Below, piece by piece: positions 820 to 25,932 of a stretch of DNA of 32,057 nt. Position 1 is the first letter of the stretch; each line of letters opens with the position of its first letter. Under the pieces are notes generated by a model. The model searched no databases. It saw only the letters and a program-made list of their open reading frames with translations, and was not told the DNA's origin. The translations under genes and the position numbers were made by a program. Origin of the DNA: Candidatus Peregrinibacteria bacterium (GTDB lineage: Bacteria; Patescibacteriota; Gracilibacteria; Peribacterales; Peribacteraceae); assembly GCA_016186175.1 (NCBI GenBank), contig JACPMB010000037.1, forward strand, positions 1 to 32,057, read 5' to 3'.

Positions 820-2508
820 TTACCGCAGAAGCTCCATCGCCTTTTCCATCTGCAGATCACGCCCCTGCGGCGCGCCTTCGTTGCTCACAATTACATCCGG
901 CGTCACACCAAGCTTGTCAATTTTGCGGCCTAGCGGAGTTTTCCATTCGGCTATCGTGTATTTTAGGCTTGAGCCGTCCGAAAACTGCATCACCTGCTGA
1001 ACGGTGCCCTTTCCGTACGTGGTTTCGCCGACGATTTTCGCGCGCCTGCCGTCCTGAAGGGCGCCTGCGACTATCTCGGACGCGCTGGCCGATCCGTTGT
1101 TGACCAGCACGATCGTCGGAACCGAGAACATCACTGTCGGCTCGTCCTCGGTGAGTTCGACGCGCGTGGAATCGCTTTCCATTATGGAAACGAACGGACT
1201 GCCCTTTGGCAGGAACGCGCTGATCACCATTCCAGCGGCGTGCAGAAGGCCTCCGGGATTGTTGCGCAAATCGAGTATAATTCCGCGCGGATTGCCCGAC
1301 TGCATTTCGGCCATTGCCTGCCGGAATTTCTTGTCCGTCGTGTCCCAAAACTGGAGAATCTTCACGATCGCGACGTTGCTTTCTTCCGTGATTTCGATTT
1401 CCGGAATCACGACTTTTTCGCGCGTCACGGAAACTTCGAACTCGCGTCCGGCTCTCCTGACCCTAAGGAGCGCCGATGAGCCCTTCGGCCCGCGCACTTT
1501 GTGCACGGCGTCATCGAGCGAAAGTCCCTGCAGCGATTCGCCGTTCACGGAAAGTATCTCGTCCTTGGGTTTCAGTCCCGCATTTTCAGCCGGCGACCCC
1601 CGAAGAGGCGTGACTATGCGCAGCACCCCTCCGGTCATCTCAACCGTCGCGCCGATGCCCTCGACTTCGCCTTTCATTTGAATTTTGAAGTCATCGCTCT
1701 TTTGTTTCGGCATGTATGTGGTGTACGGATCGCCAAGCGAATTCACCAGTCCTTCGATGGCCTTGTCTCCCGCTTTGTCCACTGTCAGCCGGTCGCGGTA
1801 GAGATAATCGCGGCGCAGCACGTTCCAGATGCTCTCGAGCATATCGGCTTTCGGAATCGGCTGCGTCGAGATCCCCTGAAGCTTCACGCGTATCACCGGA
1901 GCCGACAGGCTTTCCGTGTTCTGATCGGGGGGACCCGGAATCTGGAATGCGCGCGTGAGCAGTAATTTTCCTTCTTTGCCGCGCAGATACCGCTTAAGTC
2001 CGAACATTGTGTCCGAAACCGGCTTTAGCCAGTTGCGCTCGATCGCCAGCAACACAGTCATGCGATCGCTTGATGTGGCAGCATCCGTGAATTTTCTTGC
2101 AGGCGCGTCGGATGCGCCGGAATGCGTCGCCTGCAGAAGAATGCCAAGCATCTCGACGGCCTCACCGCGGCGTATGCCATTTGAAAATCGCAGCGCGCGC
2201 CCCTCTTTCGCGAACATCCTCAAAGCCCCGCGCGCATGTGCCGCGCGCACGTACGGGAGCAGCGCGTCCGGAACGTTGTCGTACGGCACCGGGCTTGCCT
2301 GCGGGAGAGGGAGTTCCGAGGCTTTGACGGCGGCGCGGATAAAATCCGCGCGCGTGACCGTTTGCGCATTGCGGGCGTTGAGCAGCGTGGTGACATTTAC
2401 GGCTCCTGCGACAGAGGGCAGAACCAGGAAAAAAACGAGGCCGGCGCCGACGATGCGCGCGATGAACGAGTTAAAACTCCGATTAATTTCACGCTGGCCT
2501 CCGATCAT
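820..2508 (-). CDS. S41 C-terminal processing protease with SLH-like N-terminus
   Basis: Secreted or membrane-anchored serine protease of the CtpA/Prc (S41) family, 562 aa. Residues about 15-36 form a hydrophobic signal or anchor. Residues about 50-200 contain SLH-like sequence (TRADFIRAA and RRGEAVEMLGILL helices). A PDZ domain lies around 270-350 (LRGSPAENAGLKPKDEIL). The S41 core follows, with the ILDLRNNPGG strand. The catalytic Ser is S475 in NNGSASASE and the Lys is K500 in TYGKG. Their 25-residue spacing matches the known Ser/Lys dyad of the family. It probably trims or degrades envelope proteins. It sits between prsW and dedA on the same strand. A TACAGT -10 box preceded by TGT ends six bases before the ATG, suggesting its own leaderless promoter. 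The SLH-like region makes it longer than a plain CtpA. Confidence 0.93.
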   Translation of the reverse strand: MIGGQREINRSFNSFIARIVGAGLVFFLVLPSVAGAVNVTTLLNARNAQTVTRADFIRAAVKASELPLPQASPVPYDNVPDALLPYVRAAHARGALRMFAKEGRALRFSNGIRRGEAVEMLGILLQATHSGASDAPARKFTDAATSSDRMTVLLAIERNWLKPVSDTMFGLKRYLRGKEGKLLLTRAFQIPGPPDQNTESLSAPVIRVKLQGISTQPIPKADMLESIWNVLRRDYLYRDRLTVDKAGDKAIEGLVNSLGDPYTTYMPKQKSDDFKIQMKGEVEGIGATVEMTGGVLRIVTPLRGSPAENAGLKPKDEILSVNGESLQGLSLDDAVHKVRGPKGSSALLRVRRAGREFEVSVTREKVVIPEIEITEESNVAIVKILQFWDTTDKKFRQAMAEMQSGNPRGIILDLRNNPGGLLHAAGMVISAFLPKGSPFVSIMESDSTRVELTEDEPTVMFSVPTIVLVNNGSASASEIVAGALQDGRRAKIVGETTYGKGTVQQVMQFSDGSSLKYTIAEWKTPLGRKIDKLGVTPDVIVSNEGAPQGRDLQMEKAMELLR

Positions 2509-2514
2509 GGGCGC

Positions 2515-2520
2515 ACTGTA
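2515..2520 (-). promoter_or_regulatory. -10 box, S41 protease gene (leaderless)
   Basis: Minus-strand TACAGT (4/6 to TATAAT) is preceded by TGT, an extended -10. Six bases separate it from the ATG at 2508, so the predicted transcription start falls on the start codon. I see no convincing -35. Confidence 0.45.
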
Positions 2521-2532
2521 ACAGATCGCAGC

Positions 2533-3897
2533 TTATTCATCCACATCCACACCAGACAATGTTTCAGTTTCTATCAAATGCCCCATTTCCTTCATGTTTT
2601 CCTTTTTTTGGAACAGCGCAGTAAGCAGCGTGAATCCTCCCACAACATAAATCAGCGTGGGCGCCAACAGAAGGGCGATCAGATTGAACGGCGAGCCGGG
2701 AGAGGAATGCAGCAGGTCTCCGACAGTGCGCGGATTGCCGGGCAGAGCCTCCGGGAGAGACACCAGGAAATTACTGAGCCCGTGCAAGAAAATCGCTATC
2801 GCGAACCCCGTGATGATCTTGAAGCGCCTGTAAAGATCGCGCTTCCGTATCCCCAGCAAATCGTGGCACCATTCAAGAATCCGGTAACGGACGCCGCGCG
2901 ACTGCCGCTCCTGCAGCAGCGGCCCGGCGAAGAGCGCGAGCCCCAGATAGTACCCCATGATTCCGGTTGAGACGATGTGAACCATGCTTGTCAGAATCGA
3001 GCGCCCGGCGACGTTTCCCAGGAATGCGGACCAGTCGCGGCCGCCAGGGGCAAGCAGGAATTCGCGCACAAAGCCCAGGAAATACCCGGAATTCGTCACG
3101 TTTTCCGCGAACGCGAAGCCAATTGCAACAAGCACGGACATTTGCATCACATCGTCAATGCTGGTCACATGGCGTCGGCCCGCGCGCCACAGAACCCACA
3201 ATTTGCTTCCCTCCTCGATGAAACCGACGAAAAGGAACGATACGAACATGCTGAGCAGGGAGGATTGCAGCGGCGAAATGCCGGTGGCGTGATCGGAAAC
3301 GAAAAGACGCGCGTTGGAGCTGAAATTCTGCGGGACGATTTTGAACAGGAAAAAATTCAGCTCGGCGCCACCGCGGACGAGCGCGTCGTAAAACAGGATC
3401 GGCGCTGTCGCGAGCATTCCGGCAAAGATCATTCCCAGAGCGACGCCGGCCCGCACGCGGTGATACGGCAGAAACAGTCCGCACCAGACGGCTGCCGGAA
3501 CGGCGGCGGCTCCTATCGCGATCAGGTGTGCGGTGCGATCGGGCCCTGACTTGATTGAGAGCATGTAGAAGAAAATCCAAAACACGAAAGCACCGAGCAC
3601 GGTCGCGCGCGTATTCGCGTCCCAGTCGCCGAAAAGCAGTCGCCATGCAAGAACAACTAAGAAGACTCCCATGGCGATCGCCTGACCATGCCTTGGCATG
3701 CCGGAACTCATTATCGCTTTCGTCGCAATTATCAGTCCGAACGACAATATCGTGCCCACTGCGACGCCCAGCGCGTATCGCGCATGCCGGCGCCGCGCGC
3801 GCGCCACCAGATCGAGACACGCCAGAAGCGCTACCGCAACCAGAACGACCGCAGTTTTCGGCAGCGAGATCTCGAAGTCGTGGAGGCTCTGGAGCAT
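2533..3897 (-). CDS. PrsW-like glutamic-type intramembrane protease
   Basis: Polytopic membrane protein of 454 aa with about ten hydrophobic segments. The PrsW-family motifs are present in order: EExxK (E228, E229, K232 in FIEEGSKLW), a second Glu with Asn (E265-N266 in FAFAENVTN), and conserved His residues in later helices (H307 in MVHIVSTG and one in FLHGLSNF near 385). In this family the Glu and His residues sit in the membrane and are proposed to be catalytic; known PrsW cleaves an anti-sigma factor. The substrate here is unknown and no anti-sigma gene is nearby. Four N-terminal helices extend beyond the minimal PrsW core. It heads a minus-strand group with the S41 protease (24-base gap) and dedA. 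A perfect TATAAT ends six bases upstream of the ATG. Confidence 0.8.
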   Translation of the reverse strand: MLQSLHDFEISLPKTAVVLVAVALLACLDLVARARRRHARYALGVAVGTILSFGLIIATKAIMSSGMPRHGQAIAMGVFLVVLAWRLLFGDWDANTRATVLGAFVFWIFFYMLSIKSGPDRTAHLIAIGAAAVPAAVWCGLFLPYHRVRAGVALGMIFAGMLATAPILFYDALVRGGAELNFFLFKIVPQNFSSNARLFVSDHATGISPLQSSLLSMFVSFLFVGFIEEGSKLWVLWRAGRRHVTSIDDVMQMSVLVAIGFAFAENVTNSGYFLGFVREFLLAPGGRDWSAFLGNVAGRSILTSMVHIVSTGIMGYYLGLALFAGPLLQERQSRGVRYRILEWCHDLLGIRKRDLYRRFKIITGFAIAIFLHGLSNFLVSLPEALPGNPRTVGDLLHSSPGSPFNLIALLLAPTLIYVVGGFTLLTALFQKKENMKEMGHLIETETLSGVDVDE

Positions 3898-23260: not shown

Positions 23261-25360
<2,100 letters not shown>

Positions 25361-25363
25361 ATA

Positions 25364-25438
25364 TTATGCTTGGAGAGAAATGATTCCGCGTCTGGCGTTC
25401 TTCTCCAGATGCGCAAAGGCTTTGTTCGTCCGCGCCAT
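25364..25438 (-). pseudogene. remnant or duplicate of the rpsG 3' end
   Basis: A 24-codon ORF lies in the rpsG-fusA spacer, starting at an ATG and ending two bases before the fusA ATG. Its first 13 residues, MARTNKAFAHLEK, match the S7 tail MAQANKAFAHLAK at 10 of 13 positions. Of the ten shared residues, eight use a different synonymous codon, so the copies diverged under coding constraint rather than by recent duplication. The rest, NARRGIISLQA, has no counterpart in the intact gene. Most likely it is the left-over end of another rpsG allele. It could still be translated and couple to fusA. Confidence 0.75.
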
Positions 25439-25460
25439 CCCTCAGCTGCGCTCAGGATGG
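25435..25460. repeat. REP-like imperfect hairpin after rpsG
   Basis: CCATCC and GGATGG flank a 14-base interior (CATCCTGAGCGCAGCTGAGG on the minus strand). It resembles palindromic intergenic repeats of the CATCCTGAGCG type that I recall from many environmental genomes; that likeness is from memory. It sits exactly at the start of the S7-like remnant. Confidence 0.4.
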
Positions 25461-25473
25461 TTCGCCGGGGAAC

Positions 25474-25932
25474 TTAAGCAGATTTTGCAAGGTGAGCGAA
25501 GGCCTTATTCGCTTGAGCCATCTTCAGGACGTCCTGCTTTTTTTTGACGGCGCTGCCCTGGTCGGCGGAAGCGTCTAGGAGTTCGAGCGCAAGCTTGTGG
25601 GCGATCGGGACTCCTTTGCGCGAACGCGCGGCGTCGAGAATCCAGCGTATAGACAGGGCCATCTGACGCCTTGGATTGACTTCGACCGGAATCTGGTAGA
25701 CGGATCCCGCTATGCGCTTTGGGCGAACCTCGACGAGCGGAGTGACGTTAAGAAGCGCCTTGCTGAAAACCTCGGTCGGCGGCTCCTTGGTGCGTGTCTT
25801 GATGATATCGAACGCGTTTGAAACTATGCGGCGCGCCAGTGATTTTTTGCCGTGTTTCATGACACAGCTGATGAATTTCTCCATCAGAGGATCGGAGCCG
25901 GCGGGTATGAATGGCTTGATGGGCTTGGACAT
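25474..25932 (-). CDS. rpsG: 30S ribosomal protein S7
   Basis: Small-subunit head protein that binds 16S rRNA, 152 aa, close to the family's usual 155. Family sequence is clear: DPLMEKFISCVMKHGKKSLARRIVSNAFDII near the N-terminus, ALLNVTPLVEVRPKRIAGSVYQIPVEV in the centre, and RRQMALSIRWILDAAR followed by KLALELLDASADQGSAVKKKQDVLKMA. The C-terminus KAFAHLAKSA is short and has a divergent second copy downstream. The start follows the rpsL stop by 17 bases with no Shine-Dalgarno sequence. The order rpsL-rpsG-fusA is the classic str operon. Confidence 0.98.
   Translation of the reverse strand: MSKPIKPFIPAGSDPLMEKFISCVMKHGKKSLARRIVSNAFDIIKTRTKEPPTEVFSKALLNVTPLVEVRPKRIAGSVYQIPVEVNPRRQMALSIRWILDAARSRKGVPIAHKLALELLDASADQGSAVKKKQDVLKMAQANKAFAHLAKSA

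Follow-up and report, generated by a model that had tools for sequence, protein, structure and literature searches.

The gene for ribosomal protein S7 in this Candidatus Peregrinibacteria bacterium is followed by what looks like a second ending of itself. The closest named relatives of the contig place its genome in the Candidatus Peribacteraceae, within the CPR. In the window, that is, the whole stretch of 32,057 nucleotides that was analysed, the str operon lies on the minus strand in its usual order, rpoC, rpsL, rpsG and fusA, and the spacer between the last two genes contains a short ORF that repeats the end of S7. We give an about even chance to the explanation that rpsG once ended in what is now this ORF, and that the old 3′ end was stranded there through the insertion of a short block consisting of a new gene end and a palindrome. 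Recurrent swapping of gene ends beside a palindrome does not seem to have been described from bacteria before.

The rpsG gene in use (25474..25932, minus strand, like all features of the locus) is a 152-aa ORF matching Pfam PF00177 with an E value of 1.4e-51. Its last 15 codons plus stop, MAQANKAFAHLAKSA (25474..25521), here called tail1, were delimited by codon comparison and by the synonymous divergence from the family, which rises exactly there. The spacer that follows measures 113 nt and is composed of a 13-nt linker (25461..25473, read from the sequence) between the rpsG stop and the palindrome, a 26-nt REP-like palindrome, CCATCCTGAGCGCAGCTGAGGGATGG (25435..25460), and a 24-codon ORF, MARTNKAFAHLEKNARRGIISLQA plus stop (25364-25438). 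The palindrome, which the first-pass annotation had missed, is the only full match within the window to a family that is dispersed in the genome and in relatives. Its right arm supplies the ATGG with which the short ORF starts, and exactly at that edge begins tail2, the displaced S7 tail, MARTNKAFAHLEKNA (25394..25438), recognized by its alignment score against shuffled sequence and by codon comparison; only 39 nt lie between the two tails. The rest of the ORF, RRGIISLQA plus stop (25364..25393), is not S7-like, and it probably represents read-through beyond a lost stop codon, because the displaced tail of a congener (G001) ends GCC TGA where the window reads GCC AGA. The fusA gene, a 699-aa ORF with elongation factor G motifs (23261..25360), starts three bases (TAT) after the ORF's stop and not two, as had been stated.

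Is the likeness between the tails more than an accident? A local alignment of the rpsG tail with the spacer scores 56, while 60 dinucleotide shuffles average 19.3 and reach at most 29; 11 of the 15 aligned residues are identical, and 9 of these 11 are written in different codons. The first-pass annotation had described the ORF as a repeat of the rpsG tail with synonymous recoding at 8 of 10 residues, a count that was obtained again, and had proposed the comparison with shuffled sequence, which the spacer clearly surpasses. It had also anticipated S7 proteins ending in a tail like NARRGIISLQA, but RRGIISLQA is not S7-like in any relative seen. That a random ORF in the spacer resembles the end of S7 by chance has the shortness of the repeat as its sole point in favour; the shuffle controls, the recurrence of the pattern and the synonymous excess refute it, and its probability is next to nothing.

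The recurrence was followed in 62 rpsG loci, nearly all from Peribacteraceae. A second S7 tail occurs in six of these spacers, with scores of 50-101, and the remaining spacers score 30 or less. The genomes concerned are G000 (that of the window), G001, G005, G016, G063 and G065. Tail1, stop, linker, palindrome and tail2 follow one another in G000, G005, G063 and G065, and in all four the right palindrome arm equals the RTGGC of the rpsG Met-Ala codons, though the palindromes differ. G016 has a similar, though degenerate, arm pair, GCCACC...GGTGGC, read by eye, and G001 carries, in place of the palindrome, a 509-nt insert with an ORF whose 179-aa product gave no match in a Pfam search. Single rpsG tails with a palindrome 11-16 nt downstream occur in G015 and G031; possible donor layouts thus exist. 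When the whole class was scanned with a stricter pattern, one that would miss several of the known cases too, no close double tails turned up beyond the family.

The relatives give no support to the proposal that the short ORF may act as a coupling peptide. Their tail2 often starts with GTG and can be as far as about 900 nt from fusA. Frameshift, bypass and coupling were all rejected as ways of translating tail2, since its offsets from tail1 (77-83, 97 and 103 nt) cover all three frames and the start codons are not conserved.

The spacer between rpsG and fusA looks like an insertion hotspot in relatives. Its length in L004, L007, L008, L031, L033, L107 and L113 ranges from 6 to over 2000 nt, and spacers of relatives contain genes for a Y1 transposase, a GIY-YIG nuclease, DUF559 and a 23S rRNA intervening-sequence protein. 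Upstream of fusA, the spacer of L033 (G002) holds several tandem copies of another palindromic repeat, TCATGGCGAGGAGCGCTGCCTGCAGGCAGCGCCTCGAGCCA, immediately ahead of a GIY-YIG ORF.

The palindrome family itself numbers 7-64 copies per genome in five relatives, against 0-1 for a control pattern, and it is an imperfect, dispersed family located mostly between genes. The predicted RNA folds of its members are stable, yet no better than those of shuffles of the same composition. A gene's own C-terminal peptide appears again directly behind the palindrome in 17 of 334 gene-end/palindrome pairs, where swapped tails lead one to expect 0.8, and a DNA-level scan that ignores coding finds a direct repeat abutting 38 of 222 palindromes against 2.3 expected. 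No such repeat is longer than about 70 nt, and when longer ones were sought at the peptide level, mostly low-complexity noise came back.

Genes other than rpsG are affected, and outside the str operon they are named by motif recognition, not by family searches. A second gyrB tail occurs in five genomes, and double ends were also seen at fusA (Peribacter UBA2144) and tpiA (G016); at these other genes, too, the palindrome arm coincides with gene codons. Gene starts give the mirror image, for example rpsL of G015. At L203 (G063, about 2454-2633, minus strand), three tatD-like starts are stacked with two palindromes between them and nearly the same linker, as if the event had taken place twice at one site. 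The window's own genome adds a tRNA-Thr (L125, G000:C35, 1375-1449), whose 3′ end and flank are duplicated almost exactly around a palindrome near 1500 that belongs to the same family as that of rpsG, and a weak double-tail case (score 33) at orf222 on C32.

Two further observations come from the same genomes. In G015 (L207, L208, L209), several genes with CYLKEVY-like ends have displaced tails behind palindromes, and their products seem to belong to a single family of Cys-rich proteins. The TpiA of G016 (L141/P0001, 269 aa) contains an in-frame insert of ~35 residues at about 141-180 that is absent from relatives and resembles a palindromic element inserted in frame; matches to peptides of this kind lie elsewhere in G007, G009, G017, G019, G060, G065, G066 and G081.

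Which of the two tails is the old one? The best reading is that tail2 is the displaced original and tail1 the newly installed end, because of two relatives in which this could be shown. In gyrB of G015, the DNA after tail2 (TGAGGGGTCACCAGTTTTCCGTC) matches the DNA after the single tail of a congener, G096 (TGAGGAATCACCAGCTTTCCGTC). In tpiA of G016, tail2 (ASLKPDVFGKII) fits the family consensus, and tail1 (ASLNPTAFAAII) fits none of the compared relatives. For the window, the same assignment would hold by analogy.

The differences between the tails are those of coding sequence, as the first-pass annotation had maintained: 20 pairs of tails together show 119 synonymous codon differences and 31 nonsynonymous ones. 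Neutral decay of a duplicate made in situ predicts about 42 synonymous and 104 nonsynonymous differences, with at least 86 nonsynonymous ones in every simulation, and is ruled out by this result; most of the 20 pairs were found by peptide similarity, which biases them towards synonymous change, and the gap is still large. Nor is there a gradient of differences along the tail that would point to a seed or a chimeric crossover (0.53, 0.62, 0.52 and 0.63 by quarters).

What changed was the gene end and not the whole gene, because in rpsG the divergence rises only in tail1 and because the body of tpiA stays with its genus. Synonymous divergence of rpsG in the event genomes, measured against the other family members, is ordinary in every 15-codon window up to the junction, and in tail1 it reaches percentiles of 0.98, 0.94, 0.92, 0.94 and 1.00. 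The body of G016 tpiA groups with its own genus, if weakly (73% of bootstrap trees). In gyrB, tail1 displays the divergence tendency of rpsG only weakly, and no foreign tract was found in the gyrB of G015. These data bear on the idea of the first-pass annotation that a foreign or sister allele replaced the resident rpsG and left the old 3′ end behind. The left-behind end survives, in keeping with the coding-type divergence of the copies and the resident look of tail2 in relatives; the exchange of the entire rpsG finds no support, since the atypical codons begin at the junction, the gene body carries no foreign signal, G015 gyrB is free of a foreign tract and the tpiA body is native. Whole-gene replacement was rejected on these grounds, and we regard it as very unlikely.

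The insertion of a short block is favoured because it fits the bounded size of the repeats, the fixed palindrome edge, the junction shared across genera and the mirror cases at gene starts. A block of tail1, stop, linker and REP-like palindrome would have entered rpsG at the ATGGC codons, about 14 codons short of its former end. S7 would then terminate with tail1, and the old end would be left behind the palindrome to decay. A related bacterium may have supplied the block as a short piece of homeologous DNA; uptake of DNA has been reported for Patescibacteria (PMC12455944). One side of the block would have annealed along the gene end, and the other would have been joined through microhomology of the gene with the outer palindrome arm, much as happens in homology-facilitated illegitimate recombination. 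The palindrome may have set the break point, for instance by protecting the end of the incoming single-stranded DNA. Some data count against this insertion. No donor of tail1 was identified; both tails carry lineage-specific endings, which is odd for a donor as synonymously diverged as tail1; the tail1 codons of rpsG are atypical with respect to the whole family and not only to the host; the gyrB effect is weak; and some copies are exact (L162, L125).

Could tail1 instead have been recoded where it stands? Here the palindrome would be a mobile element that inserts with a target duplication of 30-70 nt and survives only where that duplication spans a gene end, the coding copy being rapidly recoded by synonymous changes, e.g. 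because selection or survival favours the breaking of an unstable direct repeat. Recoding in situ stays a serious rival because the two tails share lineage-specific endings, namely QRE in G005, one extra residue in G016 and two in G001, and the typical codons of tail2 beside the atypical ones of rpsG tail1 agree with it, as do the exact or almost exact direct repeats of 51-64 nt beside the palindrome in L162, L125 and L197. It would, however, lead one to expect many nonsynonymous changes in the decaying tail2, which are not observed, and offers no clear reason for change in the coding copy alone; moreover, the homology of the tails in the coding cases does not reach past the stop codon, not even in the exact copy L162, and no transposase common to all event genomes was found. 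On balance we consider it unlikely, if worth keeping in view. Transposition in cis by a RAYT was set aside: Y1_Tnp is present in 11 of 16 genomes, including the window's own, and the event genomes G010, G015 and G016 have no match.

A related thought, to which we give only a slim chance, is that the palindrome belongs to a selfish unit: it would invade essential genes at their ends and be maintained because the gene end before it is recoded synonymously. Such a unit would resemble, in nature, a recoded-rescue cassette, with the tail left unrecoded behind the hairpin as the mark or target of the original sequence. That the atypical synonymous codons of rpsG are confined to tail1, that lineage-specific residues are retained and that tail2 is typical would fit such a unit; against it, exact copies are tolerated (L162, L125), the changes do not cluster near the junction, and the TnpB nuclease (PF07282) is found in 0 of 10 event genomes, so that a TnpB-type RNA-guided element was discarded.

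Or was the arrangement passed on ready-made? From a gene that already has tail1, palindrome and tail2, ordinary homologous recombination with crossovers in the gene body and in tail2 could move tail1 together with the palindrome into other species and leave the recipient's own tail as tail2. This stays a rival because a gyrB linker is common to different genera: linker and palindrome (TATCTGCGATGCGTCCTGAGC) are the same in G005 and G015, those of G063 are almost identical to them, and those of G000 have decayed. The use of one rpsG junction in different genera also suits it. On the other side, when rpsG tail1 was compared between genera, the sequences proved no more alike than random sets to any significant degree, a result on which their common origin was rejected, and tail2, diverged and just 30-70 nt long, is a poor crossover site. 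We judge such a spread to be distinctly improbable.

How do these loci compare with known systems? In Rickettsia, palindromic elements enter coding regions and are translated in frame, whereas the palindromes of the present loci stay outside the coding sequence and each gene retains its own end. Duplicated gene ends are not known to us from the neighbourhood of REPs, and searches of open-access papers found no account of displaced gene ends next to REP-like palindromes. As with REP/REPIN sequences and RAYTs (PMC3116915, PMC2817692), the palindromes are short, dispersed and mostly extragenic, and Y1_Tnp occurs in several of these genomes, but the three event genomes named above have no match.

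Among published systems, the nearest to these loci are the mobile ORFs of fungal mitochondria that bring a foreign C-terminus, described for Allomyces atp6 and for Glomus atp6, atp9, cox2 and nad3 (PMC3630166, citing Paquin et al. 1994). There, a new C-terminus is in use, the native end is displaced downstream and matches relatives, and the differences are largely synonymous, as at rpsG. Displacement of the native end is seen in G015 gyrB and G016 tpiA and, by analogy, would apply to the window. The mobile ORFs differ in having a homing-endonuclease ORF of about 1 kb between the copies, where these bacterial loci usually have a linker and a palindrome; the window has its 39 nt, and only G001 has an insert with an ORF, which belongs to no known family.

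Of bacterial processes, homology-facilitated illegitimate recombination is the most similar in its working: incoming DNA is joined to the chromosome by one homologous side and one microhomology side (PMC3240628). The loci described here differ in that the illegitimate joint repeatedly coincides with the edge of a palindrome from a single family, and in the shortness of the block. The presumed microhomology joint would be where the palindrome arm coincides with RTGGC of rpsG in four genomes and with gene codons at other genes.

Old gene ends kept behind a small palindrome are a repeatable signature, and each of them would document the exchange of a gene end in organisms that do not grow readily in culture. 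The signature connects break points at rpsG, gyrB, fusA, tpiA, rpsL and a tRNA, all taken as essential genes, with a palindrome family that is dispersed, and it could show how REP-like elements get beside genes. It also carries a warning: the last codons of conserved marker genes can differ in history from the remainder of the gene.
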